Assembly: GCF_000003855.2 (NCBI RefSeq)
Contig: NW_003101662.1
Location: 374,441 to 438,440, forward strand
DNA length: 64,000 nucleotides
Direction of reading: 5' to 3'
Source: Blastomyces gilchristii SLH14081
Lineage: Eukaryota; Ascomycota; Eurotiomycetes; Onygenales; Ajellomycetaceae
This document shows positions 15,802 through 53,744 of the stretch, in pieces. The notes under the pieces are model-generated. The model was not told the origin of the DNA, did not search any database, and saw only the letters and a list, made by a program, of their open reading frames with translations. The stretch's first letter is position 1. Each line of letters starts with the position of its first letter. The position numbers and the translations under genes were made by a program.

Positions 15802-16173
15802 CAGAAAACTTGACCCCGCTAAGTGCGCCACTTGACCTCGTTATGTAATCATGACCCCGACCTCGCACAATACAGTAATAATCAGTTGGTAATTGACTTT
15901 CAACCTTTCAATTCACTCATTCTCATTCACTCAGTTCATCAACTAATCAAAGCATGTATAGCTGATTCATAATCAATTAAATGAACAGACAAATTCATAT
16001 AGAATATAAAGAGATATTTTACAGAATTTTAAAATATATTAGAATAAAAATATTTAATAATTAATTTTAAATTGATTTTAAATTGATTCTGAATTAATTG
16101 TTAATTGATTATAGTAATAAAAATAAATTCAATTTATATATTTAAGTAATCTCTCTATATATTAAAGAAAAAC

Positions 16174-16551
16174 CAAAGCCCCGGTGACCGAATGGTTAAT
16201 GCGGCCACTCAGTAGCATCTTGGCGTGGGAAACCAAGGCGCGTGGGTTCGAAACCGCAGGGGATACATTAAATCTGAAACTCAAGCACCTCAGGTTTCTA
16301 ATAAATACAGAGGTGTACAAATCACTTCAATGAATGAATCACTCTATGTTCCTGGGCTGAGAAGTTATTATTGCATGTATCTAATTGTCACTTCTTTGTA
16401 TTTTTCTATGTTCTTGTTATCTTGATGTGGTCTCAACACCTGTATTTCCTCCTGTATAATTAACACTTGACCTGTATTTAACATCACGCAAGAACTCATC
16501 ATAAGCTCCGCTTGTATATGAGTATAATGGAAGAATAATAATAATAATAAT
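16174..16551 (+). mobile_element. tRNA-derived SINE, copy 1, with perfect 10-base target duplication
   Basis: The head has pol III promoter boxes: an A-box-like GTGACCGAATGGTTAATGCGG segment (about 16184-16204) and the B box GGGTTCGAAACC. A body of about 270 bases and an (AAT)n tail follow. AAAGAAAAAC occurs directly before (16164-16173) and directly after (16552-16561). The A-box region and a possible long variable arm (CTTGG...CCAAG) suggest a class II (Leu- or Ser-like) tRNA ancestor. GC content is well above the surrounding DNA, so insertion was late or it escaped most mutation. Confidence 0.88.
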
Positions 16552-16561
16552 AAAGAAAAAC

Positions 16562-17299
16562 TAACTTTTTCAGGTAAAAAACACTGTAATATAATCTTAT
16601 GTGATATTACATGCATCTTATTAAATTTATAATTGAGATTAATAGTCAGCTCTGCAGTCTGTACAACTCTGATAGATAATCTTTATTCTTTTCTTTACAG
16701 ATATTCTCTACTATATTTACATTCTTTATATTCTTATCTATATTTATTACAATCTGTATATTTATTAATATACTCTTTTATACACTGCTGTTTAATATGT
16801 GAGAATTCTCATTCTCTCAGCATGTTTAAACATTCTCAATTCAATGCATTATTCTGTACATACTCTACATACTGTCAAGCTCAGTATTATGTATATTAAA
16901 CACATTCAGTTCAAATCTCTTATCTGTTATTGAGAAATGTAGCTGCTTCTGTACTTAACTCACAGTAAGTTAAGCTGTCACACTGTAATATATACTGTGA
17001 AAACTGTTCATCTCATCTGTTCTATACTGCTAATTATGTGTTCAAGAACTATAACAACTGTCAGACTCTTAATTATAAACATATCTGTGATATTAAACAT
17101 TATTATCTGACAGCTGCTGCAGCAGTTCATACAGACTATATATATATAAATTTATCAAAGTGACTGTTTCTTAATATTCTTAATAATTGAACTGACTTAA
17201 CTATCTCTGAATTAGCTGTTAATTCTTCAATCACTCACAGCTACTGATCTATTCTCTACAGCTTTCAGTTCTATACTTATCACTGTTAATTACTTAATT
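16562..17299. other. AT-rich DNA upstream of the RepHel frame
   Basis: This is CpG-, CC- and GG-free AT-rich sequence inside the TIR-bounded element. It may hold the decayed 5' part of the RepHel gene. No motif is recognisable. Confidence 0.4.
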
Positions 17300-20200
17300 T
17301 TAACTGAATAAATGTCTGCTCTCTATCTACAGAGCTAAGTATTGAATTAATAAATATATACACAGATTATCAAAGACTCTATTAGTGTTTTCTACATACT
17401 GTGTAAGAGATGCTGTAAGACTGCTGTCTGTCAAAGAATCTTCACAAGAGCTATATAAGCTGTTTAATAATAATACAGTTGATATGAACTATTTCTGTAA
17501 GTATATTCAGAACTATAACTCTGTTCTGACATTTACATCTATTAAGTATAAGCAGAATTCATGTCTAAGTCATCTGACTACTAGCAGCTCAGTGTTATTT
17601 TAAATATAGAGAGAACTCTATCATCTATAAGAATTATTAAAGTCTGAGTCAGATGAGAATGTCTGTTTTATACAAATATAAATTCATAACTCACAGTTTG
17701 ATACAGATATTTTAAACAGTGCAGACTCTATTATATATTCTAGTATATTTAATTATATCTATATTATATTACTTACTGTTTATTCATTTACTTTTTCACA
17801 TTCTTCTATTATATTATTATAACTGCTAATATTTCTAAAATTAATTCTTTTATTCAGCTTTATCAGTTTATATAAGAGATACTACAGAACAGCTCTGCTA
17901 TATATATCAGTTTAAATCCTGTTCTACAGCTGAAGACAGATAATAACTGTTATTATAAGAATCTATCTACTATCTCTGAGATTGCAGTTATTATACAGAA
18001 TACTTTTAACAGTACTTATTATCTCTGTATCATTCTTCTGACACTACAACAGTCTGATACTGACTTGAGTCTTATATATATTAATTCTTACAGTTTATTA
18101 TATCTTTCACTGCATTATATTCTACTTTTTTCTTCTGAAGATCACAGCTGATATATTGATATAAATATGCTTACAGATCTCTCACTCATCTGCAATGACT
18201 CTGATAATGATGTTAATAATACTGTTAAGAATGAAGATAAGTGTGATGACTGTAGTCTGACTCTGTATATATGACATGTATATAATCTTTTTTAATAAGA
18301 TGATGTTAATACTTCTCTTTTTCAGACTAAATATCTATTTTAATAATATTTAGTTAATATCTATATGAATATTGATGAATAGCAGCTGAACTGAGTCTAT
18401 ACTCATCAACTGAAAATCTATATAGATTAATATAATGATCTATATAATGCTATACAGACAGATAATACAGACTATAAGCAGCTTAATCACTGTGTGATAT
18501 TATCTACTTCTTATATAGACAGTGAACATTTTATGTATAAATTGTTTCAGAATTCTATAATAATTGTCTTCAACTATAGACATTCAACTCTTTTTATTAT
18601 ATTCACAGTCAACTCTGAATAAGAGAAGATTATCTGTGAGTTACTCTCTGATTAGACTGCAGCAGACTGCTCAGATTTAATTATATATATTTTTACAATG
18701 AAGATTTTTCATTTTCTTAACATTTTCAAATTCAGACAGCTGTTTGAGTTAATATTGATCAGAGTATGAACAATTGAATATTAAAAATATGAACTGTCTT
18801 ATATATATCTATTAATCTAACTAGAGAACTCTGAGTGATTTTTACAGTCTGATACAATTAATAATATTATATCTACAGAGCTGTCAAGCCCTGCTGAGAA
18901 TATAGATGAGTTGAGTGAATTGATCTGTAAATTCATAATTTATAATTTATATAATGCTGACAGAGCGAGCCTCTATCATGAGAATAACAGATGTATAAAA
19001 TGTTTTCTTAAAGCTTTTCAGAGTGCTATAGCTATTGAAGAGAATGACTATTCTCTGTACAGATAGAAGTATAATTCATCTATCTTCTTTAAATATACTG
19101 TCAATAACAGTGAGATTGTAATTGATAATCAATGAGTTATTTCATACAATCTCTATCTTATCTGTATATATAAAGTATTTATAAATATAGAGGTCTGTAC
19201 CTCTGTTAAAGTTATTAAATATATTAATAAATACATCTATAAGAGTCTGAATCACACTGTTCTCTATATCATTGACTTTAATGATGAGATTGATATTCAA
19301 CTGTATAGATGTTATATCAGCTCAACTGAGACTATATAATATATATTTACATTCTGTATACATCAGAAGTTTTCATCTATTAAAATGTTATCTATTCATC
19401 TATCAGATCATCAGATGATTTACTTCTCTGAATCTGAATATAAAGATTATAAATGAATTACTGAATATTTGATAAATAATATATCTAAGTTTATAACATT
19501 CTTTATCTATAATAATTCATATCTGAATGTTCAGTATCTCTATCAAGAATTTCTCTGTCATTTTATTTGAGACAAATATAATCAGAGGTGAAAGAATCAT
19601 GTGAAGAGAAGATCAGTTAATTATCTATCTTATCTCAGTTTATATAATGATGAGATGTTCTTTTTACAGCTGCTTCTTATTAATATACATGATTCACTGA
19701 GCTTTAAAACTCTGTAAATAGTGAATGATGTTTGTCATTCTATATTCTATATAGTATGTCAGACACTTGATCTTCTGTATAATGATAATGAGTGAATCAT
19801 TACATTTAAATCTGCTGTTGTATTTACAACTGCTTATTACATGCAGTCAGTATTTATCACTGTATTAATTTATGAAAATGTTGCAGATTCATCTGCTCTC
19901 TGAGCATGTTTTCATCATGCTTTCTATAATAATCTTTTATATCAACTGTGTCAGATAAATCTGAACTATATTATCAATACTTCTGCAGAAGATTGATATT
20001 ATAACTATAATCTGTTTCTTATTCAGCAGCTTCTGTATGAGTTTGATAAGATTCTTACAGACTTTGATCTGTCTGCATGCAGCTCTGTATGAAATAATCT
20101 TATCAAAAACTGACTACTTTTTAAGAAGCAGAACTACAATCTTATAGAGAAAATTATCACTGCAGATACTCTGCAGATGCAGTTGAATAATGATTAATAT

Positions 20201-21560
20201 TATATATATAATTCAATTCTGACTGTAATAGAATTACAGTTATCTCACTATTTTATACAAGATTTCAGTGATACTGATAAAACATTTCTTTACAGAGCTC
20301 TCTATAGCTGTCTATATATAGATGAAAAAACAGTTCTTTATATGACTTTCTCTGACATTGCAGCTGTTCTTTCACTGTGTGACAGAACTGCTCACTTATG
20401 TTTTATCATCTCAATTGAATTGAATGCAGATTCTGTGTTAAAGATAATTATTCACAGTGAACTGAGCTGTCTGCTACAGGCTGTAGACTTAATTATTTAA
20501 GATAAGACCTTTATACAGCACTGCTATTATATAAAGATTGTTAATTATCTTCTTCAAGATTTATATTTATCAGATGAACTTTTTAATGATATATCTGTTA
20601 TATTTAATAGTGATTTTATACAGACTCTGTCTGTTATACTATGTGACAGCTGTGCTGCAGTTGTTGCAGCTTGTCTGCAGTATTTATATATATGACAGTG
20701 ATTAACTGTACTGCACTTGAGAAGAAATATGAGACTGACTGCAGATAATGATAATATAATGTTTATAAATTAACTTAATTAAATATCATATAATTCAGAC
20801 TGTATTGACTGTGTTAATCTTTCATTCTATATTTATCAAGCTGCTGACATTAGTATGCTGTGTGAGAGAGTGTTTTCTACAGCTGAACTTAGAACTGTAG
20901 TAGTCTGCTCTGATTACTTTGAAAGCTGTGTTATTCTCACTGTATTAAATCAGAATATATTCTGCATTAATAAATGAGTTATAACAGTTATATCAGATGA
21001 TGGTTATACATTTTATACTGTAGATATGACTTATACAGATGATCTGATTCTGAGCTGTAAGAAGTTCTTCTATGAATATCTGACTGTTATTAACTATTCA
21101 GTTCTGTTATTATCTATATTAAGATTAAAAGTAAGTACTTCTATTATACTTCTGTGTAATCTCTGACTGTTTAAAGAGCTCTGTAATAGCACAAGAATGA
21201 TTATTCAGTAGATGATAATCTGTTTACTTAAGATGAAGATTATATTCAGTATATATAAGAGCTCAGTTTATATACTGTTATAGATCAATCTACATACTCA
21301 ATCTGTTGAGATTTCATTTGATATAACTCACTGTCAGTTTTCAGTTCATTCATACTTTACAATAATAATTAATAAGTTTTAGAGACAGTCTCTTTCTACA
21401 GTTGATATTGATCTCAGAAATCTCATATTCTCATATGATTAGCTATATATTACACTCTCTTGAACTATAGATATCAATCAGTTGACTGTCTTACTAGATG
21501 AGAATGATAAGAGATATACATTAAATAAGATATATTCAGAGATTCTATAGTTTCTTAACT
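17300..21560 (+). pseudogene. Helitron-type RepHel (rolling-circle replication initiator plus Pif1-like helicase), heavily mutated
   Basis: Broken plus-strand frames match Helitron RepHel in order. The Rep part includes FINIEVCTSVKVIKYINKYI (about 19170-19230) and a segment ending DEIDIQLYRCY. The HUH motif site at 18800-18808 now reads Tyr-Ile-Tyr in place of His-x-His. The helicase part has the Walker A site at 20270-20284 reading DTDKT in place of GTGKT. It continues with NMRLT and with INKFQRQSLSTVDIDLR near 21370-21420, the conserved Helitron helicase end. In the stretch 19500-20200 I count seven TGA and two TAA premature stops and no TAG. The frame is dead. Element ends (5' TC, 3' hairpin-CTRR) were not identified. 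Confidence 0.8.
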
Positions 21561-23069
21561 AATTCTTCTGCTACTGCTGTTTTTTCTTCATTATCTATAC
21601 AATATCATTATCAGATATTAAAATAGAGGTCTTTAAATATGTAAAAAACTGTTAGTTCAATTTGATATTAACTATTAAAGAAAAGAAAAAAGCAATAATA
21701 TCTTATCAGACTTATTTTCATATCTCACACAGCTTATATAATCTGTTTATATTACTCTCTATTTTTCAAATTTTTTAATCAGAGCTGTAATATCTATGAA
21801 GATACTCTGTTAACTGAGCTGAGTTATCTATAACAGATTCACAGCCTCATCTCACTCTTTATACAAATATTTCATCTCTTTCTTCATCTTACAGAGCTGA
21901 TGCATCTTCACTTACAGCTGTAATAACTTTAACTTCATGATCTCACTATCACTCACTTTATCATTCTTCTCTTCATTCTTTAGAGTTATAAATATTATCT
22001 ATTTCTTTTTGACTGAATCAGACAGCTGAGCTGTTTAATCTAACTTCATACTGATAGTCTGCTTCTTCTTCTTCTTCTTCTCCTTCTCATTCTTCTCTAT
22101 ATTGACAGAGATGAAGAACTGCTGATTCTCTGTTATTTTTATATTAGTATATACATTTTATATATACATTTTGCTAATGAATTTACATATTATAGAGATG
22201 ATTCATTAATTATCAGACTGCAAGCTGCAGTGTTTACTCAGTGAATTATAGTAATAATTTATACAGACTCTCTTCAATATATCAGAGATTATAACATACT
22301 TAATAAATAGACTGTAACTCTTCTCACATGAGCTGTATAATAAAGTGACTTTAGTATCATAGCTATAAGTAAGTACTGATTCTATATTTATTATTCTTTT
22401 TAGCTGAGGCTTAAATTTCTTCTTGTACAGCACTATATCTCTCTTAAGCTTTATCTTATACAGCTGTGCAATGATCTCACTGTTTTTCTTGACTATTTAT
22501 TCTATCAGCAGTCATAGTTTATATTCAGATATTCATGCATTGACAGGCTGCTGATATAACTGCTGAGAGACAGGTATAGACAGATTGACAGACTGCTGAG
22601 TCTTCAGAGCTTTCTGAGCTTGCTGAGCTTGCTCTGCACTATTATTAGCTGTAATTTCATAATTTCTGAACTGTTTCTCTTTCAGTTCTCTACTTACATT
22701 CAGTCATTTTAACTGCTTCAATTATATTTCAGATGATTTGATAATTAATTGAAGTAAATTATAATATATTTCAATTGCTGATTATATATATTATAGTTCT
22801 AAGATCTTTACATAAGCTGTCTGATATTTAATTATATTTTATTTAAAGCTTCTATATTAACTCTACAATACTGCTACAGTGTTATTCATCTTTTTTCTAT
22901 GTAGTTATTCTCTATTAATAGTTATGAATTACATGGAATTCATCTATACAAGTCACATGCAGCTGTTCATATTCATGAATATCTCATTACATTCAATCTG
23001 AGAAATTAAACAGCACGTTTTTCAAGCTGAATAAGCGAGCGCAAGCGAGCGATTGAGACTTGTTAACAA
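21561..23069. other. Unassigned AT-rich DNA after the helicase
   Basis: It contains a CTT microsatellite near 22063-22085. Near 23025-23050 a small CpG-retaining hairpin-like stretch (AAGCGAGCGCAAGCGAGCG) contrasts with its CpG-free surroundings. No coding family was recognised. Confidence 0.4.
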
Positions 23070-24009: not shown

Positions 24010-24302
24010 TGTAAGAGGTCTATACTGAATAGATCAGTATAATATATATAGATCTTATATAACAAAGTGAAAAATATTAAAGAAGAAAAAGAAAGAGAAA
24101 GTGTGAGAATCAGTAATTAAAGTAAATATTTATACATATATACAGTGTATACATAGTGAAGCTTCAAGATAAAAGAATAGAAATTATGTGAGTTTTTCAG
24201 CTGAGAATTGATAATTGAGAATGACTGAGAATCAGAGCTTTCAGTGAAATCTATGAAGTGTAAAGAAATAGTCTATATAATAATCAGATACAGTCTGTTA
24301 TA
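24010..24302 (-). repeat. LTR of gypsy family 2
   Basis: 293 bases, homologous to 61008-61316 and, inverted, to 38084-38401. It begins TGTAAGAGG and ends CTGTTATA where the better copy has CTGTTACA. Confidence 0.85.
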
Positions 24303-26385
24303 TTAACTTCTCTCTTCTCTGATTATACATAGTTCTCATCAGTCAAGAGCTGCAGTCTCAGATAATACAGAACTTAAAGTTCAGGTCAGATAATTATAAC
24401 TAACTCATTTTATAAGATATTATCAGTCACAGCTGTGAAATCTCTTCTCAAGAATATTATCAATCTCTTATTGAAGTTTATTATCTTCTTATATAATCTC
24501 TGACAGCTGTCAGTTGAAAATCAGTTAAGAAGAGAATAGATCAGTGACAGCACAGCAGAGTAAGCTCATATAAAAGACATTATAAATCTCTGATAATATA
24601 TTAAGAGAGTAGTTATAACTATCTAGAACTTCTATTACTTTATACTTAATATAGTGATAATTCAGTGTATAAGATGAATGTATGATCTGTATATTCTTGA
24701 GATTCAATCACACTAAGTCTTCTATCTTATATTACTCAGCAGAATCTCAGTGAATATTGATTTAATTCTCTTAATCTTGTTTCACAGTTATTATGAAGAT
24801 CTCTGCTCAGTCACAGATATCTCAGAGCTTTATTACTATATTATTAATAATCTGAATTGAACTGCAGAGATTCAGTGTGAAATGTATAATTTCTAGAAGA
24901 TTCAATACTTTCATATGATAACTATGTAGAAGAAAGAACAGACTTATATCTGTTAAGATAATATCTCAGCTATTAATAGTAATCTTTATATATAGAAGAA
25001 GATTATATCAATCATCTTATAAATAATTACAGAACTTATAAAGATAATTCTTTACAGTTTGAATTATTCATTCTGATATATTATTAGTCTCAGAGTAATA
25101 GATAGTTGATAAATAATATATAATCTTGAGAACTTGACAGATTCTTATTCAGAAAGTACTTATAAATTAACAGTCTAAATCTAATACTATAGATTATAGT
25201 AATTTATATATCTGATAGAATAGACTCTGTAGAAAAGCTTCAGTGACTTGTTCATATTTATCTTATTATAAGATTTTAATATTATATCTTTACTCAATCA
25301 GTTTATAATAATCAGAATATTTCTATAACTTCTACTCTTAGAGAGATTAATAGCAAAGTTAATTACTATATCTTATCAGATTCTATTAGAAATATTAAGT
25401 AATTTCAGTAGATCTTTTCTACAGTTCTTTTACAAGATAATGAAAGAATAATAGTTATAGTTTTAAATAAAATATCTGATACTGTTTAATATCTCAGATC
25501 AGTAGAACTCTTAAAAGATTATTCAGTATAATTATTTATAATCTGAGTGACTAGTTATATATAAATCATGTATCTCTTGTATTATCTAAGTATATAAGAG
25601 TTTAAAGTAAGAGACTTAATGTTGTTTATAAAACTACAGAGTATTATTATTATTAATTAAGTATTCTGAAATATCAGTTCTTATACATAGTTCTGAAAGA
25701 AATCAGAGTACTTCTTAATATACTGCTTCAGTGAGTGCTTGAAGAAGTTCATTAGTTTAAGCTGTTATATATCATAATTCATTCAGTGTAGATTTAGAAG
25801 AAGTTAAGATATTAGTATTAGTATCAGTGTTAATATCAGTATAAGTATCAGTAACAGTTCAAAAAGAGAATATTCTAATTGAAAAAGTATATATAGTATT
25901 ATAAGTTATTCTATCTTGATTAACTAATATCTTTGAATCTAGAAGCTGATGTTCTTGATTTATTCAATAAGTATCTATTATATTAAAAGACATATCTTGC
26001 TCTTATTATAAGAGAGCATCTATCATCAAGTTCTGACTGCTGAGATGATAGTGTATAGTGAAATGAAAACAGCTTAATAGCTTAGATTATTATATCTGTC
26101 ATTTAGTAAGTTTATAAGTAATAGTAAAGTATTTGAAATTCTTATAATCTGTGATTATCTCAAATTTGAAGACACTTCAGAGTTCAGAGTCTCATTTCTC
26201 TAAATAGTATATAATTATAAGAAGTTTCTTATAATAGATCTCATAGTTATATTCAGTGAGACTCAACTTCTTAAATATAAAGATACATAATTATAAAATA
26301 TCTTTATTATTATATTGTAATATAGCTCTCTCTATAATATAGTCAGAGAAATCAGCTTTAACAACTATTTCACAGTCACAGTTAA
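24010..26385 (-). mobile_element. Ty3/gypsy family 2 fragment (RNase H to 3' LTR)
   Basis: An LTR at 24010-24302 (TGTAAGAGG...CTGTTATA) is followed by minus-strand integrase and RNase H remnants. The integrase C-terminal piece reads VIEVLDSYNYSLNILSEIYN near 24600-24680. The RNase H start reads DCEIVVKADFSDYI near 26330-26375. The sequence parallels 61008-63330 throughout. It is cut off at 26385 by a SINE, and the reverse transcriptase half is not found beyond it. Confidence 0.8.
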
Positions 26386-26757
26386 CCTCAGTGACTGAAT
26401 GATTAATGCGGCCACCTGGTAGTGCCTTGGCGTGAGAAACCAAGGCGCGTGGGTTCGAAACCCGCAGGGAATACATTAAATTCAGAACTCAAGCATCTCA
26501 GGTTTCTAATAAATACAGAGGTGTACAAATTGCTTCAATAAATCACTCTATGTTCCTGGGCTGGGAAGTTATTATCGCATGTATTTAATTGTCACTCCTT
26601 TGTATTTTCTATGTTCTTGTTATCTTGACATGGTCTCAACACCTGTATTTCCTCCTGTATAATCAACACTTGGCCTGTATTTAACATCACGCAAGGACTC
26701 ATCATAAGCTCCGCTTGCATATGAGTATAATGAAAGAATAATAATAATAATAATAAT
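26386..26757 (+). mobile_element. tRNA-derived SINE, copy 2
   Basis: It matches copy 1 over its whole length, from the A-box region (GTGACTGAATGATTAATGCGG) through the B box GGGTTCGAAACCC to the (AAT)n tail. It lacks the first few bases. A clean target duplication is not seen, probably because another element adjoins at 26760. Confidence 0.85.
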
Positions 26758-27087
26758 ACAGCCGTTGCGGTTAGCAATCTCACCAGATCACGTGACTCAT
26801 CACTATATTATGTTCTTGTAGATAGATCTATTAATACAATCTTTAACTATTTTATAATAACTTTTCACAAGCTAGTAACCTTTCAATCATATAAGCTTTA
26901 CATCTTTTATAATATATATATAGCTAGCTCTTCTTACACGAATACAACAGATTAATTATCTCACAATTTATAAGATGATTAATTTGTTATATTTGTGTAG
27001 AAAGAGCTAGCTGTATATATATTATATATGAGATCACGTGTAGACGGAGCGGTTGCTACGGCAATGCTACTAGAGTAGATGCTACAC
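26758..27087. mobile_element. MITE-like DNA element with a nested hairpin
   Basis: An inner inverted repeat (26911-26950 against 26984-27023) has arms containing AGCTAGCTCTT and AAGAGCTAGCT and a loop of about 34 bases. Outside it lie CACGTG-containing segments. The right part, 27021-27087, is a copy of 53841-53907 with eight differences in 67 bases, every one C to T or G to A in this copy. The left end (GCCGTTGCGGTTAGC) resembles the sequence at about 58745-58762. Confidence 0.55.
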
Positions 27088-27199
27088 TCTCTCTCACATT
27101 ATTATGCAAGATCTTAAACATTATAATAAAGAATCAATTATCTTCTGCAAATCTAGCTATATCATTCTCAAATTCATTCAAATTATGCTATCTGTATTA

Positions 27200-30100
27200 A
27201 GTTTGTGTATTTCATCTCTCTTTATCTGTAAAACCTAGTAAATCAAGAAATTGATGAAATGCAATTATATTCAAGAGTTTAATTAATTCATCTGCTGTTA
27301 TTTCTTCAGTTGAGATGTAATCAATTAAGATTATATCATTGTTCAACTGACTGTGAGTGTAATGAAATCAGATATTAATATACTTACTTCTTATAATAAT
27401 TGCAGTCACTGTAACAAGATCAATCACTCTTTTATTATCTATCTTAATTGACAGAAGGTCTTCTGTTTTAATGAAGCTCAGATTCATTATCATACTTCTT
27501 AATTATGTTACTTCACATACAGCTTCACTCAATGTCATATATTCAGCCTTATTAGAGCTTAAGAATACATGGAGTTGCTGGCTTAATTGTCATGAAATCA
27601 GTGCATTTCTCAATTTGAAGATGTAATCAGATATAGATTTATAATTATTATTTAACAGACTGACTTAATTGAAATCTGTATATTCAATCAGTATATATGC
27701 TATATTCAGAAATTCATTCTCAGATTTCTCATCATCATTCTTTATATAGAACGTGTCAATCTCGCGTGTTTCTTTCAAATATTGAATAATGTGTAATAGA
27801 GTCTTTCATATCTTAGAGGTGAGAGCAGTGTTCTTCTATATCAGTAGAGATGCTGTGTGAGTAATATTCAGCTGCAGCTTAACAGCTAAGTATTGCAGAT
27901 ATCTGACATCATGCTGAAATTATCACTTTGTAAAATTACTTTCTTTTTTAAGAATGAGAGAGTTATCTAAATGTAGATTCTTATTTATGAGTGTACAGAC
28001 AGCAGTTGTATTATCTAGATAAAAATCTTCTATCAATCAATTAATGTAACATTAGAGTGTCAATTTGATTCTACTCTTCACATATTTCACTTTCATTTTT
28101 AGATATTTTATGAGTTTCTTTAAGTCTTTGATCTCTAGTTTTTGTTGTAAAATGTTAATAAGTTAATCAGCATTCTTCAGAGCATTCACAAAGATATGAA
28201 GATTATCAATATATATGATTATATATAGATGTTTTCAGGCTGAATGCTTCTAAAGAGCAGAGTCATAAGAACTCAGACTGAAGTCATTTTCTCACAGTAT
28301 AGCTGTCAAGTAGTTATATCATATTTTAACAGCTGAATTCAATCTGTATAGAGATTCTTCAACTGCATAGATAAGTATACACTGAGCTTCTTATTCAAAC
28401 TCTGTGAGTTGTCTTATATAAACTGTTTTTTCTAATCTATTATACAGATATGTTATTACTATATTCACTTACTGTAGAGTTTAATCATGCTTTGCAGTGA
28501 TTATAAACATCATTCAATTTATTGTATCTGTAATCACAGAGATGTAAGTCTTCTGATAAGTGTCTTTCTTCAATCAGTTATTATGTATAACTCATTGAGA
28601 TTTTCATAATATATTATTCTCATCAGTATTGAGATTATCAGAGCAGTTCTTTTTAATAAATACTCAGTGATCAGATATCACTGATTCATTATATAAGATG
28701 TCAGAATGTGAAATAAGTGTTCAGGTCTTATATCTCTCAAGATCAGATATTTTGTATTGTATTGATTTCTTTCAATAATCTTCTACTCTTTCTGATCTAT
28801 TCATAGCATTCTTGTGTGATTTTGAAAGAAAACTGATAATAAGAGTGAGAGTGTAAGCTGTAAATGTCTTTGCAGACTGCATTCAATTTGTATTTATTAA
28901 TTCAGAAATGTCAGAATTCTTCATTAAATAGATGATAGAAACAGTGTCAGTTACTGCAGTTATAGTAGTTATAGTGATCTTCAGTATTTCTTACACTTTT
29001 GTAGAGAAAATCACATAACTTATATTAATAATTTTATCTGTTGTAGAACTTCACAAGTGATAGATTGAATATCTGTGAAATCTGATAAGCTTATATAAAT
29101 CAGTTCATACAGACAATTTATTCAACAGCTTCTATGATTCATGAAGATGAGTAAGAACATCAGTTTCAAGCTCATAAAAATATGTGATCTGTGACAGAGT
29201 GTTTGTTAATACTGAAAAAGAAATTGTATAAAAGCTATGAATAGTCTCTTTACTATCATCATCTGCAACTGCAGATCAATACTTTTCATTATATAGAACT
29301 ATAGATGTGAGTGTATTGTTTATGATTGAAACAACTGTTTTCAGAATATCTGCTCAGCATTTCTTCAGAATCTTCTTACTGATGAGAACTGCTCTGACAT
29401 GAGTTATAATTGTATGTATTTCACGCTCAGACACATTATCTTGATATAATAATTAAGAAGTAGTTGATTCTTATACTGTGTCATGATTGATGAATAATGC
29501 TGTAATCTTTGTGAATCTGAACATATTATTAACATCAGTTCTGATATATGCTGATGCAGTAAAACCTAGATTCTTCATGAATTAAACTCAGTGTGTATAG
29601 TAATTGTAAACTTGATTCTTAATGTATAAGAAATAGATTCATTTATATCTGATCATGTCATCTGTAATTAACATGTAATATTTATTACTCTGCTGTGATT
29701 CAACAGAGTATTCTGTAGACTCACTCAATATTCACCTATCATCTGCAAGATTGATATGAATTCACTTCATTGATTATACAGCCTGTGACATGAGAGTGAT
29801 TGAGTATTTATATGTTATACTCACTTTAACACAGGTATTGCAAAAGAAATTGATCTTGATGTCTTTGACACAGATATCAGATAGTGAATTCTTTGTCAAT
29901 ACTATAATAGCTTCTGTGTGTATATATCTCAGATTAACATGTCACTTTACAAGTATTTTCATAATTATAGATGATTCTCCATGTTGAGATTAATCATCAG
30001 TGAGATCATTATCATCAAGAGTAATCATGACTTTAGCATAGTCATTATCATATATATATAATTTCACTGTGAAGTAGACTGCTTTAGACTTATAATATAC

Positions 30101-31650
30101 ATCAACTTCTGATATTCTTTCAACTATTTTATAAATTGCATTCTGAGATGTATGAATTGCAGTGAAAATCACTTCACTTGATGCTTTAATAATGAAATAG
30201 AACAAGGTGTTTAAGCTTGAAAGCTTATATTGAAAATTCTGATCCTTCAATCTGACAAATGACAATAGATTGACTGTGAGATTGAGAACATAATAAATAT
30301 CACAGACAGTGATATTCTCTTCTTCAGATTCTAGAAGAAGATCACTGATCTCTTTAACATGACTGTAATCTTCATCTACTGTATGAATCTTTATATTATT
30401 ATTATATATCTTTCACTGAATGAGAGACTGCTTTTTATCTGTTATATGAGAACTCACACATGTGTCAAGAAACTAAGACTTGCTTATTATATTAATAGTT
30501 GCTGAAAAAGCAATTGCTGCATTGATAGCTGCAGGTTGTGAGATTATAAGATCAGAGAATTTCTTCTTCTTATCATCTTTATTCTTCTTTTTATTCTTCT
30601 GCTTACTGTGTTCACTGATACTGATATTGTTACTATTATTCTTCTCAGATGTAATAATATATTACTTATTTAACTTATGTTACTGTTCAGTAGCAAGTTC
30701 TGAATGCAGATATTAACAGGTGCTTTTCAGATATTATCATGCACTGCCATATCTCACAATTTAAACTGTGTGTGAATAATGTAGTAAGAGTTGTGATAGT
30801 TACATTAACTTACTGAGGCTTAGAATGTTCATTCTTGAACTTGCTTGTACAGTTTATCAACTGTTTTATAAGATTATTAATATTGATGTTATGTATAGAG
30901 TTCTGATCAGACATGTAGAAATTGTCTAAACATATCTTAATAAAAGACTTTTAATGCTTTTTCAGATTAATAAGAAAGAGATTATAATAGAAGTCTTCTG
31001 AGTTATTTATCAATTTCTTATAATATATAACTAGATAATGAAATCTTCTCTGAAATGCTAGATAATCATTATCTTTGATATGTAAGATAATTAATTCTTT
31101 CACAATATTCATACATTTCTCTGCAAGTGAGACAGCATATTCAACTCTAATTCTTTTTCATAGCACGGCTGTATTATCTGACTCAAGAATTTCAATGATT
31201 GTATGTACAGACTCTAATAAGAACTGCAATATATAGTAATACAGTACTTTGATATGAATGCTTCATTTTTCAGCATTTAACATGTCTTGACTGATGTTTT
31301 CTGAGCAGACTCATTGATTTTTCATAAGAATGTCAGATCTGCTGATAGACTGACCGTGTGACTATGTCTGAGATCAGAACTAAACTTTACAGTTATTACA
31401 TTATCTAAAAGCATTACTTCTGATCATAATTTATATTCATCATATTAATTTCAAATCACATTATTTCAAATATTAAAGGTTTCAGATTCACTTTTTAAAT
31501 AAAAATCTAGTCTCAGATAAAGAATATATTTGAATTCTTAGTTACATTTTCATTCTGATTTCATTATTGAGAATGACATTAAATAAGACTATGAAATCAT
31601 TTCTCATCTACATAATATCATAATATAGTACTCATTTGTTGAAAATTTAA
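27200..31650 (-). mobile_element. Ty1/copia retrotransposon remnant
   Basis: Reading the minus strand gives reverse transcriptase and RNase H of the copia type. The YVDD site at 28202-28213 reads YIDN and is followed by a segment resembling the RT connection (VNALKNAD, LEIKDLKKLIKYLKMKV). The RNase H end includes NKAEYMTLSEAVCEV near 27520-27560 and a C-terminal STEEITADELIKLL near 27280-27320. The more 5' parts (protease, integrase, Gag) should lie up to about 31.6 kb but are too decayed to place. LTRs were not identified. Confidence 0.75.
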
Positions 31651-38083: not shown

Positions 38084-38401
38084 TGTGATGAGCTGCACTT
38101 AATTAATTATATAGACTATTCTGTTACACTTTATAGATTTTTATAACTCTGATTCTCAGTTACTAATTCTCAGCTGAAAATCTATGAAATTTTTATTCTT
38201 TCACTCTGAAGCTTTATTATATATAAAAACCTCTATTCTTCTACTCTGAAGTTTCATTATATATATCACTGTGTATGTATATAAATATTCACTTTAATTG
38301 CTGCTTTTCACACTTTCTCTTTCTTTTCTTCTCTAATGTTTTTCTCTTTGTTATATAAGATCTATATATTATATCAATCTATTCAGCGTAGACCTCTTAT
38401 A
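38084..38401 (-). repeat. Solo LTR of gypsy family 2 with AAAAT target duplication
   Basis: 318 bases, inverted relative to the coordinates and homologous to 24010-24302. AAAAT occurs directly before (38079-38083) and directly after (38402-38406). No internal gypsy sequence adjoins, so it is a solo LTR left by recombination. Confidence 0.85.
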
Positions 38402-38469
38402 AAAATCAATTATTAAATATTTTTATCTTAATATATTTTAATATTCTGTAAAATATCTCTTTATATTCT

Positions 38470-38727
38470 TGTAAGAATAAGTGCTCGCAGGCGATTATTC
38501 GGGTGTTTGCAGCTTAGCGTGATATGTACTGTTAACTACTAGAAGTATTTATGATAGAAAGATAAAATGTAGAGGTTAAATGTATAATAGCATTCAAGCT
38601 GAGTTATGAATAGTATTTGTGAACTTCAGTCTATATAGTTATGTATAGTCAAGAGCTGCTAGCTCTATTAATTATATAAGAGATAGAAATAGAGATAAAG
38701 AATCTGTGAGAAGTGAGATTTCTTACA
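38470..38727 (-). repeat. 3' LTR of gypsy family 1
   Basis: 258 bases beginning TGTAAGAATAAG and ending TTTCTTACA. It retains a few CpG sites near its left end (GCTCGCAGGCG) that the other LTR has lost. Confidence 0.9.
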
Positions 38728-45458: not shown

Positions 45459-45716
45459 TGTAAGAATAAGTACTCACAGATGATTATTCAGGTGTTTGCA
45501 GCTTGATATGATATGTACTGTTAACTACTAGAAGTATTTATAATAGAAAGATAAAATGTAGAGATTAAATGTATAATAGCATTTAAGCTGAGTTATGAAT
45601 AGTATTCACAAACTCCAGTCTATATAGTTGTGTGTAGCCAAGGGCTGCTAGCCCTATTGATTACATGAGAGATAGAAATAGAGATAAAGAATTCGTGAGA
45701 AGTGAGATTTCTTACA
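45459..45716 (-). repeat. 5' LTR of gypsy family 1
   Basis: 258 bases, same ends as the partner LTR. Most differences from the partner are C/T or G/A, some with the ancestral base retained here and some there. Confidence 0.9.
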
Positions 45717-46091
45717 ATTCTATATGAGTTATTAAGATTGAAAAGAATTCAGATGTAGTAGTTTAATTCTCTGAAGTCTCTTCACAGTTAATTAATCTTG
45801 TATTAACAGGTATTTGATATAAGATATTTGAATAAAAGAAGCAGCTATTTGAAAAGCTTATTATATAATTATTACATAATTATAATACTTTATAGAAGTG
45901 CAAGAGCTTTATAATCTGTAAAAGAGATTGAATATAATTAATTATTATTGTTATCTAACTAGTAGCTAGTGAAAGCTAAATATATATATGTGAGTCACGT
46001 GAGTTAGAGCTTGTGTAGTAGCTTCAACAAGGTCGGAGTCATGATTATGTAATGAGATTAAGTAACGCACTTAGTAAGGTCAAGTTTTCTG

Positions 46092-46480
46092 TATACATGT
46101 TATGCTATAGAGTTCTGCTATTTCAATTGCTGATTAAGCAGATACACTCAAAACATGCAATGTAAACATAATAAAAGAATTCTTCTATTCAGAGTAAACA
46201 CATTCAATGCTTACACAGGTGTTTTTAAACAAAAGTAAGAAAAAAATAAAAATAATGTAATTCTTTGTAAAAACGTGCTATCCGGGCTATAACCTGTGGA
46301 ATGGTTAATTCATTGTATTCATGTAGGAAGAGCTAGCTATATATATTCATAGCGGAAAAACGTAGGCTGATTATACGACCAGGTTATGGTTGTTCTGCCG
46401 TGCCAGTCGCCGACACTGTCGCCGAACCGTAAAATATAATATAATGGTAAATTAGCTGTGGAATCACTGTAAATGAGTTA
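46092..46480. mobile_element. GC-retaining island with a MITE-like end
   Basis: The stretch 46262-46435 keeps many CG and CC pairs. It includes TGTAGGAAGAGCTAGCTATA, which matches the hairpin arm at 26911-26950. Further right, GTGGAATCACTGTAAA is similar to part of 53790-53812. It looks like a late insertion of the CACGTG/AGCTAGCT MITE family. Confidence 0.4.
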
Positions 46481-47910
46481 TGAACAGAACAAAATCATCA
46501 TTATATTGACAATGTCACTGATTTCTATCTACATAATCACTAATTCTAAAAAATGTCTTATTCACTGAAATTATTCTCTATTGAAAATCTGTCATATCTC
46601 TCTGTAATTTCTTCTGAATTCTCTGAATATCTCTATATCATTGTCATCATTTCCTGTCATATTCACATCAACATTTATTTCAGAGAACTTGTGAATTGAT
46701 ATTGAAGTTTGTGAAGAGTCAGTGTTAATGATCATTCACTGTTTAAGAGAGAGAATTTCAGAGAGATTAGAAGTTATGCATTTACTCATCTATATTATTA
46801 TCAACTTCTATATAAATCTGAGAATCATTTCACTGATTCTAACTTACTTTTTCATCAAGAATGTCAAGAGTTTCAGTGCTACTCATAGCCAGAGAATCAA
46901 CTGAAGTTGAAAGATTGAAGAAGAAAGAGAGAGAAGAATCAACAGCAGTAGCAGAGATGTCAGTGAGAGAGATAAGAAGAGAATTATTACTGTTATCAAA
47001 TTTCTCATCACTGCTGCTACTGTCACTGACTGTAACTGAATTCTTATCAAGATAATCTGCAAATCTCTGAACATGCTTCATTATTTTATACATCTTAATA
47101 GTAATACAGCTAGCTTCAGTATTGATATTATTTGTCAAATTTATGAGATTCTTCATCACTGATTTTTATTCTTTAATATAGCTGACTATCATTCTCAAAA
47201 GCTTGTGATACACTTCAAGCTTGATAGTTTCAATATTAAGTTTTATCTTTTTAATTATGATTTTCTTCTTTTCTACAGCAACTTTTTTCTTTTCAATTTC
47301 TAATTTCACTCTTTCAATATTCAACTTGATCTTCTCAATCTCAATTTTAACTTTTTCAGTGATACTGATGATGATATTCAGAGCTTTCAGAGCAATAGTG
47401 ATACTCTTCATACATTGAGCTTTTACTTTCTATCAGTGAGTTTTAACTTTTTTAATCTATTTTGAAAGATTCTTTACTGATTTCAATATAGCTCTCTTTA
47501 TTATTTTCTTGAAATCATTCAATACAGAAAGATAAAAGTCATGAATTTGAATCAGATTGTTAACTTATTCTTTTAATTCTTCAGAAATAATTGTATATCT
47601 CTTTTTCTCATAATTGTAATTTATGCAAGGCTTTAAGCTTCTCTTCATCTTATCACAAGCAGCATTCAAATGACAGAGAAAAATATACTTAATACAGTGC
47701 TCACACATTGTTCATTTATCAGACTGCTTTGTCAGAGTATTCAGATGACTGCTTGCTTTCTTCTCTTAAGTCTTTGCAGCAGCAGCACAGATACACTTGA
47801 AGATGTTACTTATTATTTTAATACTACTGCTATTATTATTATTACTGTGATTGATACTGCTGCTGTTATTGTTGTTACTATAATTGATACTGATGCAATG
47901 AATTACTGAT
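46481..47910 (-). pseudogene. Unidentified element gene with an acidic Ser-rich and a coiled-coil segment
   Basis: The minus strand keeps two open stretches. 47411-47166 (81 codons) is a Lys/Glu/Ile heptad-rich coiled coil (for example KLEIEKKKVAVEKKKIIIKK). 47159-46839 (106 codons) contains a Ser/Asp run. They are in different frames but adjoin, and could be one decayed protein. Upstream bases to about 47700 also read as charged, broken coding sequence. The family is not recognised. Confidence 0.35.
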
Positions 47911-47999
47911 GTTCTTGATATACTACATAGATAAGATATCTTGACTAGAACTTTTCTAATTAAAAGCTTTCTATTATAACTAGCAGAATACTAATCAGA

Positions 48000-50900
48000 C
48001 TAAGAAATGAAGAAGAGCAGAGTGAGCTGAGTGAGCTGAAAATGATCTTTGCAGTGTATTATTATTGCAAGAAGAAGAAAGAAGAAAAGAAGAAAAAGAA
48101 AAATGTAAGTCTTTATATATATTGTTAATTCATCTTTGCAGATTATTATACAATGAATGTAAATACTTTCATATTTCATCTCTAAGTGTAATTAACATAT
48201 CTGATGAATTTCATTCATATCTTAATACTTTTTGTACAGGCTATCACTGATTGAATTACAGCTATTTTGAATATAAAATCATTTCTATTGACTAGAAACA
48301 AGTGTTCAATGCACTGTCAGAAATATATCTACAGAATTCAAGATTTTCTGATGTAGTGAAATCAGCAAATTCTCTGCAGTCATAACTATACAAATTACAA
48401 GATAGAGAATATAACAACTTTCTTCAGTGAATATCAAGACAGGTATATTCTAATTATATGTATTAAAGTATATATTAACTAATTTATATATAAAACTCAT
48501 AGAAAACTAAATATATTGAAATATAAATAGATTGTGTTAGAAATCTCTACATCACTGATCTGTCTTTCACTGAAAGTGTCTCTGAAAATTTGATCTTTTT
48601 CTGCATCTTCTTCTGCATATCTTTCATCAGATATCTCTTTTTTACTGTTAAGATATTCTGAATCATCTCAGTAAAGTCATCTCTGACAATTTACTGATAT
48701 TCAGAAATATTACTTATCAGATTTCAGAATATCAGAATATTTTATCATTACAGTATAGCTGCAGCAGAATTTTCATTTGTATCAGCATTATTAAATATTT
48801 TGATCTGAGTTATAAGATTGATATATATCTCTATTTTTCAGAATCAGTTTCTAGTTTTTCAATCTGAAGTTTTCAATTCAATATCTTTAACTAATGAATA
48901 TTTAACTTACATTTCATATATCATTGTTCTCACTCAGAGAATCAATCAAAGTCAATAATTCTCTGTACTCAGTAAAAAACCAGAAAGAACTTTTCAGTGA
49001 TAAATGAATCACAGAAGTATTCAAAGATGATTGATTCTTTATAGCAGTTATGTAATCTGATTATCACTGAACTTTCTCTGCTCTTTATCTTCTTCTGTTG
49101 AATATGATTCTATATTAATAAATGATTAGCTAAGTTAGTCAAAAAAATTTTAATATCTCACTGAAAAGTTGATATATTTGCTAAAATCTAATACTACTTA
49201 TCTTCATTTCTTTGAGAGTTCAGAACTTTCATGTTTTAATTGCATTCAGCATCATTATTCTGCTGAATGAAAACATGTATAATGTTTTATTCTTTATTTT
49301 TATCACACTTGTAACTGTTCAATTCAAATTATCTTTATTGAAAGAAAGAAAATACATTCATTTTATCTTCAGATACAGACACTGCTCTGTCAGCTGAATT
49401 TTCTTCTTATATATTTCTGCATCTGAATGCCAGGTTCAGTGATGCCTTTTTGATGAACTGTTTGATATCAGTGATAAGTTTGACTTCTTCTCATCTGGCT
49501 GATATTTATCATTGCTATTATTATATTCATTCTATATTCAGATATATTAATATCAGATTTCTTTTGAAATTGATGATTTGTCTTATTAAACTTATCAGAT
49601 GAGAGAGTTCAGAGAGATCTAGTAGAGCAGAATTCATGACAATATTCATTTTTGAAATCTTGATAAAACTCTGATAAATTTGTGATATGAATTTCAATAA
49701 ATTGCAGGAATATAATTTTGAAATAAAGAAAGTAGTTTGATTGTTAATATTAAATTAATGTAGATTATCACTGATTGCAGCTCTTATTAATATATTTCTT
49801 TTTGATAATTCAATCTCATCTCTTTATTTTATCAAGATCACTCATTTACTTCATTTATATCTTTTCAACTATACAACTTTTTTCTATAAATTATATCAGA
49901 AAGTAAAATGTTGTGTCTGTTTAATTAAAATCTGAAATACTATCTGCTATCTGTCTCTAGACAAGAATCTGAGAATGATCAATCAGAATTTCAATCTCAG
50001 AGTTCTCTTTTCTCAGAAACTGTAAATGAAGATTTCACTGAAAGTGATTCTGATAATGATGCTTCTGATAAAGAAGCATTGCTATTTTCAGTAAGTTTAT
50101 TACTTTTAATGTCTCTATTATTATAAAAACTAACATTCTCTAAAGACAGAGTTATATAATGAGAATGCTGCTGATAATGTTAAGTATATTGAGTAGCTTT
50201 TGAAAGCAGCTACTGAGAAGAATATTTCTGAAAATGATGATCAAGAGAATTCTGATAAGTCAGTCACTGATAATATTAAAATGCCAGCTGCTGATACAAT
50301 TGCTGTTACTATTACTAATCAATTTATTGATTCTGATCCAGTAATTAATATATCTCACAAATACAGTAACTTTGAAATGAATTCATTTATTCTGACAATG
50401 AGACTCTGAGCTGAAGAGTCAGATATTTCCTGAAAAAACTACAAATCATTAATACAAATTCTGTGTTTATTGAAGAATACATCACTGATAAGTCTGCTTT
50501 TAGAAGATCTCTCAACTCTGAAAAAGTAATACAGAGTATAATTTCTGATTTTATCAGTTAAGAAAACCTCAATTTCAATAGTATTATCAATGTAAATATC
50601 AACTCTGAGTTCTGCTCAGAAAAATCTTACTGAATTCTTCATGAGATCACTCTACTTTTAAAATCTGATTCTCTTAATATCTACTCTTCTCAAATCCCCA
50701 ACTTTTCAGCAACAAATGTATATAGAAATGACAGAAATTGTTAATAATCTCACAGAGTTATAACAATCTCACAGTTGAGAAAGCTCAGTCAAATATTATT
50801 CTAATGACTTTATATAATATTTATCAAATAAACCTATTTTTTCTTCTGATTTTATTCAGTATCAGTGTGAGAATCTTGAATGCTTTTATAAATCAGAGTT

Positions 50901-53640
50901 GAATGATATATCTCACATTGAGAGAGTGCATTTTATTAAATATAATCACTGATATTTAGATATAAAGTCTCATATAATAGTTCTGAAAGTTTAAGAAGCT
51001 GTTTACTATACTTTACAGACTGTATAAAGATTATTATTCTTGAATTCATTATTTAGTCTCTTCAAAATAATTACAATGAAGAATGAGATGAAATATATCT
51101 CAATTATTCAAGTTCTTGATCAACTTGATATTTATATAAATACAGTATTTAAATCAGGTTCTGATCTGCTGATATATAAGAGTCAAGATCAGTATTTTCT
51201 TTATCAGATCATGAGAATTAAAACTGAAGTTATTAAGATATAATCATATTACAAATCTTCACTAATTCAGACTAAGTTGAAAATTACAGTACATGAACAA
51301 GATCTTTTAAAAAGTATATTTTATTCTAATATACAAGTTATTTCCCTGTCATATCAATTATTTATTCATGAATTTGATTTATATCAGAACATGTACTGAA
51401 GCTTGATAAGTTTTTATTTAATTTCTACACTAAGCACTGTTAAGTGCTCAAAGTGAAACAATATTTTTATTCTAATCTTTAATTCTCATAGTATCAATTT
51501 TTCTGACACAGTTACTGTATTGTCATATAACTTATCTATATTAAATTATAAGAGAATTATGATGAATATTGATAAAAAAAAGATAAGAGTAATTACATCT
51601 TATATTATATTTCTTAAAGATATATCACAGTAAAATAGTAATATAGAGATTAAAGAATCAACAGTAAGAAGATTATACTGAAGCTGCTTTATTAATAATA
51701 AGAATCAACTGAATCTGAACTATAATCTATATAATAACAGCTGATTTCACTATTATATATAATATCTTCAGACTAAACTGAATGATCTGCTGAATTTCAT
51801 ATACAGAGATTAAATATATCAAGAGTAAGAAATAACATCACAGACTGTATCTCTTTTTCAGATATATTCAAGTTTGAATTTGATCTCTTTTTTTCTATCT
51901 ACTTCATATTATAGTGAGTTCACTGATATATCAGAGATTTTATGACTTATTACTGATTAGTACTGTCTTATCACTGTATAATTAACTAGAATACTTCTGA
52001 ATATTACAGATATTCTCTTTTTCTCATAGTTAGAATTATCTACAGTCACTGATCACTCATCTCAAGAAGTATCAGCTTTAAGAATATACTTAAGCTTCAA
52101 TCATTATATCTCTTATCTTGCAGTGTGAGCTCAGAGAGAAATAACTCAGTTCAGTAATTAAGTAGATTATTTCTGCAGTATTTTCAGCATCAAATCAATC
52201 ATCNNNNNNNNNNNNNNNNNNNNNNNNNNNNNNNNNNNNNNNNNNNNNNNNNNNNNNNNNNNNNNNNNNNNNNNNNNNNNNNNNNNNNNNNNNNNNNNNN
52301 NNNNNNNNNNNNNNNNNNNNNNNNNNNNNNNNNNNNNNNNNNNNNNNNNNNNNNNNNNNNNNNNNNNNNNNNNNNNNNNNNTAATTTCTTATTGAAGCAG
52401 CAGTCAGAGTAGTGATAATATTTAAGTTATCTCAAGCTGATTTAGTTATTAATCATCAGTCATCTTCTACTTTAACTATAAGTACTGTCATCACACATAT
52501 CAGTAATTATACAAAAAAAGCAAAGTTTATATAATATATGAAGAGACAGCTGAATATATATATTAATTTATACTATATTAAGCAGATTAAAGAATATACA
52601 GTATTCAATAACTGTAATATTCTGATAAAAGAGAATAAGTATTAAGACTATAAGAATCTAGTGCAGTGAATAAATTATTAAGATATAAAAAAGATACTAC
52701 TCTTATAGAAGAGTTTTCACTGAACTTTATAACTAGTATTAAGAGATTTCTTTGACAGCTCTGATATATATCTGATACAGAAGATTCAAGATTTATATAC
52801 AGTTTATTCAGCACTGTTCAATAATCTACTGAGAATGAATGAAGAAGCTGAAGATAAGAATGATAATTCACTGAACTACTCTATTAAGTTAGAGTTAATA
52901 AAAGATTATATCACTCTGAAGATTTTTAATTATCTATTATTAAGCAAGATATCAGAGAAAGTCAGTATATAATTTATAAATCTCTTTAAGCTTGAATTAT
53001 TTTATTCATTTCTTAATAAGCTATAAGAATTCTATAATACTGATTAAAATAAGTTCTCAGTTTTGAAACCAGGTCACTGTTCAATACTTTTCTATAATAA
53101 ATTAACATTCTCAGTTCAGTATATCTATTCAATCAATTAATTAATTAATTAGTTATTAACTTACTAATATATAAATCAGAGATTATATTCACTGAATCTC
53201 TCTTATAAAAGAAGATATCATTCAATATCAGAGAGCAGAGCTTGACTGAATTATAATTATATTTATTTATAAAATGAAAGAAATTAAGTGAATTTTCTTT
53301 ACACTTATTTCTCTACATTATATCATGTATGATCATCTACTGAATCTGCTGATTTTATAAGAGAATTCTGATAATTACACTATTATCAGACTGTCAGCAG
53401 TTTGAAAGACAGTATTATATAACATTTCAATACAGAATAGTGATGAAAATGATAATTATTTAATATATAAGTCTCAAGTAACAAGATATTTACATTACAA
53501 TTGAGATATCTCATTTCTTTAGATAGATAGTTGATCTGAGATCAGGTAACTAGCTTAATAGTATATTGATTTCACTGATAGAATAGTATACAGTGTCTTA
53601 TAATATCTTAGTAGTATTCTGATAATGATATCTGTCAATT
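48000..53640 (+). pseudogene. Unidentified spliced element gene, decayed
   Basis: Plus-strand reading gives long coding-like stretches. An acidic Ser/Glu-rich part lies at 49975-50095, an open stretch at 50200-50409, a 67-codon open stretch at 51040-51243, and a Lys/Glu/Asn-rich part at about 52440-53000. Intron-like junctions with good consensus remain at 48105-48164 (GTAAGT to TTTGCAG), 48435-48500 (GTATAT, TAACTAAT, CATAG) and 50091-50145 (GTAAGT, CTAAC, AAAG). A multi-intron gene in transposon-type DNA could be a KDZ- or other large-transposase gene, but I cannot name it. The assembly gap interrupts it. Confidence 0.35.
52204..52381. other. Assembly gap (178 N)
   Basis: 178 consecutive undetermined bases lie in AT-rich repeat DNA. 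The true length may differ. Confidence 1.
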
Positions 53641-53744
53641 ACACAGTTACTGAGTAATGTTATAATAGTGTTAGAAAGTTCTGCACTGTCTCAACATTAT
53701 CTTGACATTTAATATTCAGTGATGTGTCACTGAATATAATGATG

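Follow-up and report, generated by a model that had tools for sequence, protein, structure and literature searches.

The window analysed here, i.e. the whole 64,000-nucleotide (64-kb) stretch from contig NW_003101662.1 of Blastomyces gilchristii SLH14081, consists of GC-rich DNA and of two AT-rich blocks built from repeats. In both AT-rich blocks, the depletion of cytosine followed by guanine (CpG) or by cytosine (CpC, which reads GpG on the other strand) is nearly, though not fully, complete. The subject of this analysis is the mutation of these repeats. The following features are located in the window.

1-15800: GC-rich, gene-bearing flank, undepleted; probe 13901-14700 is single-copy.
16177-16553, plus strand: putative tRNA-like short interspersed element (SINE) of about 375 bp, in which a tRNA-like B-box was spotted by eye; lightly mutated, with CpG and CpC retained.
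16601-53600: AT-rich block of hypermutated repeats, near-free of CpG, CpC and GpG, with few short exceptions.
20198-20497, plus strand: open piece with similarity to a PIF1-like helicase (PF05970, E 9.8e-11), which suggests a Helitron-type element.
24070-26348, plus strand: copy of a 2.3-kb repeat of high copy number (40 scored of 2998 candidate places), the source of pairwise mutation counts.
26386-26756, plus strand: second copy of the SINE, within the block (families D12-D14, D17).
29990-30409, minus strand: open piece with similarity to a Pol beta-barrel domain, a weak indication of a copia-type element (PF22936, E 1.5e-4; its 22.5 bits fall short of the 27-bit cut-off).
40708-40920, minus strand: open piece with a Tf2-1-like SH3 domain, gypsy-type (PF24626, E 2.9e-7; 30.9 bits, cut-off 30).
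53801-58800: GC-rich island between the blocks, undepleted; probe 57001-57800 is single-copy.
58801-64000: second AT-rich block, depleted in the same way and continuing past the window end.
61067-63309, plus strand: second copy of the 2.3-kb repeat (families D5-D7, D9, D10, D15).

A sequence-only reading of this DNA had counted no CG, CC or GG, 15 CA and 25 TG in 18001-18300, and two CC with no CG or GG in 50041-50340. A recount gave exactly the same numbers. Over 15802-53700, 64 CG, 115 CC and 132 GG were observed, whereas 692, 735 and 651 are expected from the base composition. The strand-symmetrised observed/expected ratios were 0.09 for CG and 0.18 for CC/GG, 1.18 for CA/TG, 1.49 for CT/AG, 1.45 for TC/GA, 1.03 for GC and 0.94 for TA, at a GC content of about 27%. 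The corresponding ratios in the flank at 1-15801 (47% GC) were 0.74 for CG, 1.10 for CC, 1.15 for CA, 1.00 for CT and 0.76 for TA. The depletion extends from about 16600 to about 53600, and its edges are sharp to about 200 bp. It returns at 58801-64000, beyond the region 15802-53700 to which the signature had been assigned. At this edge, the number of CpG, CpC and GpG changes from 41 in 58601-58800 to 2 in 58801-59000.

When the DNA was divided into 200-bp windows, 161 of the 184 windows in the first block and 23 of the 26 in the second contained at most two CpG, CpC or GpG; the mean in the GC-rich flank was 32. Counts of at least six were found in seven windows of the first block and two of the second, namely in 26401-26800 (the SINE), 27001-27200, 38401-38600, 45601-45800, 46201-46600, 60201-60400 and 61201-61400. 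Many of these dinucleotides are kept in 46201-46600 (31) and 60201-60400 (15), which lie outside both located SINE copies. These two pieces may be repeats of younger age or shorter length. Positions 52204-52381 are 178 consecutive N, either an assembly gap or a stretch whose letters were withheld.

The mutations themselves were read from aligned copies. In a genome of 74.8 Mb and 75 contigs, the DNA covered was the window plus 67 loci; for the genome-wide extent, the literature is followed. Thirty copies of the 2.3-kb repeat, including 24070-26348, to which the full-length scored copies are 81-87% identical, were compared pairwise by BLAST (435 pairs). Their mean identity was 84%, with 13.6% transitions and 1.1% transversions (transition/transversion ratio 12.2). 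For the SINE, probe 15784-16760 gave 1421 candidate places, 40 of them scored, and nearly all match the SINE part; 29 copies yielded 406 pairs with 96% identity, 3.5% transitions and 0.11% transversions (ratio 30.7). In addition, 1042 aligned pairs of mixed repeats (ratio 8.5) were drawn from pieces of the window and flanks of loci totalling 218 kb, pairs shorter than 200 bp or with at least 99% identity being dropped. Flanks of the 2.3-kb repeat are included in this set, so that its families are not all independent.

Both strands were affected alike. The mean C-to-T share per copy pair was 0.496, and the C-to-T and G-to-A counts were 32,678 and 32,389 in one copy of each pair and 30,266 and 31,666 in the other. 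Changes on the same strand were not clustered in runs (observed/expected runs 1.08). This means that the repeats have undergone C-to-T and G-to-A hypermutation on both strands.

The frequency of change differed with the 3' neighbour of the cytosine. When that neighbour was unchanged, the C/T-differing fraction in the 2.3-kb repeat was 0.88 for CpG (1323/1503), 0.855 for CpC (4802/5614), 0.467 for CpA (62885/134797) and 0.132 for CpT (20012/151473). The fractions in the SINE were 0.159, 0.124, 0.036 and 0.006, and its variable columns were 19 of 30 for CpG, 24 of 44 for CpC, 14 of 47 for CpA and 1 of 37 for CpT. On the assumption of independent hits on an original C, on which the values hinge near saturation, the relative rates in the 2.3-kb repeat were CpG 1, CpC 0.89 (bootstrap interval 0.64-1.17), CpA 0.235 (0.17-0.30) and CpT 0.048 (0.03-0.06), and each copy is estimated to have lost about 79% of its CpG and about 75% of its CpC. 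The relative rates in the SINE were CpG 1, CpC 0.755 (0.58-0.99), CpA 0.206 (0.13-0.31) and CpT 0.033 (0.01-0.07). The intervals of the two elements overlap despite an approximately 17-fold difference in dose. In the mixed pairs, the fractions were 0.747 for CpC, 0.551 for CpG, 0.454 for CpA and 0.159 for CpT, and the order CpC > CpA > CpT was observed in 11 of the 12 window pieces with aligned pairs (15 pieces tried). The proposal of the sequence-only reading that mutation prefers a C followed by G or C is therefore borne out by the aligned pairs: CpC changes at 0.76-0.89 of the CpG rate and CpA at 0.21-0.24.

The same reading had taken CA to be spared, and had set against itself either a CpA depletion comparable to that of CpG and CpC or aligned copies differing mostly by CpA-to-TpA changes. 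The former was looked for, with correction for base composition, and was not seen. The latter is literally the case: among the 30 copies of the 2.3-kb repeat, CpA/TpA accounts for 62,885 (71%) of the 89,022 C/T differences whose 3' neighbour is unchanged. CpA-to-TpA is now the commonest difference in the long copies, since hardly any CpG and CpC are left. A change of CpG to TpG yields TpG and, on the opposite strand, CpA, and a change of CpA to TpA removes CpA. CA/TG looks normal because the slow drain of CpA is offset by refilling from CpG. The normal CA/TG thus stands as a description of the composition, but fails as evidence that CA is no target.

This balance was simulated with the ratios 1:0.85:0.22:0.04, derived from the aligned pairs, and with chosen doses, starting from the GC-rich stretches of the window, which may differ in composition from the elements as they once were. 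The simulation gave, for dose 2 and dose 3 respectively, GC 0.28 and 0.24, CG 0.03 and 0.01, CC 0.34 and 0.15, CA 1.20 and 1.09, CT 1.44 and 1.49, and TA 0.90 and 0.96; the observed values are GC 0.27, CG 0.09, CC 0.18, CA 1.15, CT 1.49 and TA 0.94. Two other models were rejected. When CpG and CpC were the only targets, a plateau was reached at 33% GC with CA of about 1.65 and TA of 0.48, unlike the observed values. A Neurospora-like model, run with assumed rates, gave CA 0.56 at dose 1 and 0.32 at dose 2, and CC 1.47 and 1.89, respectively. Among the 30 repeat copies, those with lower GC had less CpA (Spearman 0.99, a correlation that is partly arithmetic) and more TpA (-0.99), and CpT was near-flat (0.11). 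These data fit one ordered series, in which CpG and CpC are mutated first, CpA later and CpT hardly at all.

The base after the target dinucleotide also matters. The changed fraction of CAG in the 2.3-kb repeat was 0.227, compared with 0.593 for CAA, 0.629 for CAT and 0.403 for CAC. In the mixed pairs it was 0.215, compared with 0.529 for CAA and 0.575 for CAT, and in the SINE none of 3305 CAG was changed, compared with a fraction of 0.058 for CAA and CAT. Within the CTN group, CTG had the smallest fraction both in the 2.3-kb repeat (0.049) and in the mixed pairs (0.057); the SINE counts are too few for a comparison within this group. The low values of CCG and CGG stem in part from a selection effect, as both neighbours were required to be unchanged; CAG and CTG are unaffected by it. 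C before AG is partly protected.

The stop codons in reverse-transcriptase (RVT_1) places agree with these preferences. Among the best-scoring 150 of 3909 candidates, which are probably the least damaged, 148 contained in-frame stops: 279 TGA, 137 TAA and 43 TAG. The excess of TGA is ascribed to hits on CGA (CpG) and on TGG (CpC on the opposite strand), and TAG arises from CAG among others, so that the spectrum agrees with targeting of CpG and CpC and with protection of CAG. The two RVT_1 matches in this best 150 that have no in-frame stop are located at C3:2759880-2760566 and C16:609416-610000.

The sequence-only reading had regarded the signature as no property of a single element, and this view is upheld: Helitron-type, copia-type (below cut-off) and gypsy-type pieces and the SINE are all affected. 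Collinear copies were found for 17901-18700 and 19801-20800 of the Helitron-type element, and in its region 18001-22000 CG is 0.03 and 0.00 and CC is 0.09 and 0.06. All five depleted probes are multi-copy (2998, 33, 58, 805 and 32 candidate places), and both undepleted probes are single-copy. As a correlation on these few probes, mutation is restricted to repeated DNA. The light mutation of the SINE may simply mean that the SINE is younger (transversions of 0.11% compared with 1.1%). An escape of the SINE through its short length, which was also considered, gains no support from these data, as the transversions make the SINEs approximately ten times younger.

Cytosine methyltransferase genes of the kind that the sequence-only reading had proposed to look for are present. 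In one search of the genome with PF00145, four matches were found, which correspond to three genes, of the RID, DIM-2 and DNMT5 types. The RID/DmtA homologue on contig C10 has the catalytic PCQ and EET motifs, which are common to all 17 aligned sequences. Its open frame shows 87% identity to DmtA of Blastomyces dermatitidis ATCC 18188 over 97% of a query in which the exons are not joined and a read-through intron is included, and the first exon is nearly identical to that of DmtA. The next matches are from other Blastomyces, Emmonsia, Emergomyces, Histoplasma and Paracoccidioides. A SET-domain gene (L006:4649-5893; PF00856, E 7.6e-19) adjoins this homologue. It could encode a histone methyltransferase linked to repeat silencing.

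The DIM-2-like open frame on contig C1 (L005:552-4262) has 1236 codons with BAH and methyltransferase domains. Its best solved relative is 9bap, listed as DNA (cytosine-5-)-methyltransferase, which we take to be DIM-2. The DNMT5-like gene has methyltransferase and SNF2 parts; its best relative, 7r76, is listed as DNA repair protein Rad8 and is presumably Dnmt5. The presence of the DIM-2-like frame may be set beside the statement that Dim2 is nearly absent in Eurotiomycetes (PMC12543289; here and below, statements from papers cited by accession refer to portions of those papers). Hypermutation of CpG only, as expected of a Masc2/DNMT1-type enzyme, does not describe these data: CpC changes at 0.76-0.89 of the CpG rate, and the one search gave no DNMT1/Masc2-class gene among its three genes.

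The standard indices do not register the process. By the thresholds in PMC7882544 for repeat-induced point mutation (RIP), i.e. TpA/ApT above 1.15 and (CpA+TpG)/(ApC+GpT) of at most 0.75, none of the 84 AT-rich windows of 1 kb (500-bp steps) was positive. The mean product index (TpA/ApT) was 0.91, the substrate index 1.34 and the composite index -0.42, and the composite index was above 0 in 7 of the 84. Together with the fact that CpA is not the fastest target, this supports the earlier suggestion that the context is not Neurospora-like. Judged by CpA/TpA indices, the window repeats are thus RIP-negative, even though most differences between their copies are C-to-T changes.

These observations make it likely that RIP operates in Blastomyces with a shifted target preference, by a putative enzyme. 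Repeated DNA would be recognised as repeated, and cytosines on both strands are converted into thymines at relative rates of CpG 1, CpC about 0.76-0.89, CpA about 0.21-0.24 and CpT about 0.03-0.05, C-A-G being partly protected. CpG and CpC are exhausted first, and CpA is drained more slowly and refilled by changes of CpG to CpA/TpG. The most likely effector would be the RID/DmtA-type methyltransferase homologue on contig C10, which would act during the sexual phase and perhaps together with DIM-2. Judging from the roles of these enzyme families in other organisms, dependence on RID and premeiotic timing would be expected. The same process might explain the GC-poor isochores of Blastomyces.

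Several observations weigh against this explanation. The order of CpG and CpC varies between the data sets, CpC (0.75) being above CpG (0.55) in the mixed pairs; we think that the CpG value there is diluted by conserved pieces. In one SINE-bearing piece, w24801, CpA (0.53) exceeds CpC (0.43) and CpG (0.33), and in the two mixed pairs of lowest divergence, where the counts are very small, the context order is absent. The strand share varies between pairs somewhat more than expected from a binomial distribution (standard deviation 0.060 compared with 0.043; range 0.31-0.68). The Helitron-type piece gave no aligned pairs, so that its evidence is that of composition. The dependence on repetition rests on seven probes, and two of the depleted ones share one element. 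Furthermore, the 375-bp SINE carries the same spectrum lightly, and it is shorter than the length of about 400 bp usually needed for RIP in Neurospora (PMC2621366).

Among the other explanations, the one that survives best, though we consider it unlikely, is methylation and deamination outside RIP, in which DIM-2 and DNMT5 would methylate repeats vegetatively and 5-methylcytosine would decay to thymine. DIM-2- and DNMT5-like genes are present and CpG is a leading target; CpG signatures have been tied to methylation and deamination (PMC4352252), work on Dim2 in Zymoseptoria suggests such a route, and Dim2 loss lowers the mutation rate in repeats according to the title of PMC8016269. However, CpC, a non-symmetric site, suffers nearly as much as CpG, and a loss of about 79% of CpG and about 75% of CpC at 1.1% pairwise transversions seems faster than unassisted decay. 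That gene-poor isochores decay through weak selection or a regional bias of mutation, with no recognition of repeats, is very improbable. The depleted blocks do coincide with gene-poor DNA, but their edges lie within about 200 bp, an undepleted GC-rich island with a single-copy probe sits between the two blocks, and the SINEs inside the block keep CpG and CpC, though they are younger. Least credible of all, and strongly disfavoured, is an APOBEC-like cytidine deaminase acting on the single-stranded complementary DNA (cDNA) of retroelements: many affected repeats are retroelements and the strand share of single pairs reaches 0.31 and 0.68, but this candidate was rejected on the overall strand balance, the lack of same-strand runs and the equal depletion of the Helitron-type element, a type that has no cDNA stage.

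RIP with a shifted preference was then compared with systems in other fungi. Its nearest relative is probably the CpG-directed RIP predicted for Uncinocarpus reesii, which belongs to the same order, Onygenales. CpG hypermutation is reportedly found in the repeats of Coccidioides. U. reesii has RID and DIM-2 homologues, and CG, not CA, is its predicted RIP site (PMC4165359; the CG site also in the review PMC7862722). The consulted portion of PMC4165359 gave no statement on CpC, whereas CpC leads together with CpG in Blastomyces. RIP in Neurospora crassa and most Pezizomycotina is likewise a repeat-associated C-to-T change on both strands with RID- and DIM-2-like genes, but CpA is the main target in the Neurospora type and TpA/ApT rises there, whereas CpG and CpC lead here and TpA/ApT is 0.91.

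In Aspergillus (MATE in A. nidulans; A. niger and A. fumigatus), both CpG and CpA are hit, with CpG ahead of CpA in MATE of A. nidulans (PMC2621366, PMC4352252); no strong CpC component was found in the consulted portions of these papers. The repeats of Stagonospora nodorum are depleted of CpC, CpG and GpG, as here, but CpA and TpG are depleted too, TpA rises and CpA-to-TpA is dominant (PMC2621366). Transposons of Microbotryum and rusts carry a CpG signature (CpG/TpCpG hypermutation; PMC2621366, PMC4352252). The signature there is linked to a Masc2-like enzyme without RID, in contrast to the RID, DIM-2 and DNMT5 types found here. The RIP contexts given in the consulted portions of PMC2621366 and PMC4352252 are CpA, CpT, CpG, and CpG plus CpA. 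No report of CpC as a leading target was found in a literature search whose scope mostly excluded subscription papers. CpG-directed RIP has already been reported for a relative.

In B. gilchristii SLH14081, GC-poor isochore-like tracts add up to 49.1 Mb with 29.6% GC, and in ER-3 to 41.1 Mb; they are rich in gypsy elements and make up 62-65% of the two Blastomyces assemblies in a table of PMC4595289. They are very probably the same kind of region as the blocks in the window. In the main text of that paper, a term search found neither CpG, CpC nor methylation, and found repeat-induced only in a reference title; RIP is mentioned once, in passing, in a 2024 paper on Blastomyces retrotransposons (PMC11540331). 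The term search thus found no analysis of hypermutation in the main texts of these two Blastomyces genome papers.

A more far-reaching proposal, which is put forward tentatively and which we consider doubtful, is that the mutator targets a C that precedes G or C, with a preference for A or T, and against G, one position further on, that this context differs from the RIP contexts in print and is perhaps set by DIM-2 or DNMT5 with RID, and that it has made most of the genome GC-poor while being invisible to CpA-based scans. A survey published in 2025 and covering 1,239 genome assemblies states that RIP-like defences share a CpA preference (PMC12543289), and a 2021 survey of Ascomycota relies on CpA/TpA indices (PMC7882544). 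If the isochores are indeed products of RIP, the reported absence of RIP in other Onygenales and Eurotiomycetes needs re-examination by methods independent of CpA. The ordered rates also offer a way to find out which enzyme determines the RIP context.

Two further open frames lie in the GC-rich DNA of the window. The frame at 60-3140 on the minus strand, in the flank, encodes 1026 amino acids, is rich in Q, N, P and H, and has near-identical internal repeats. The frame at 56848-58080, in the 5-kb island, contains C2H2 zinc-finger-like motifs recognised by eye.

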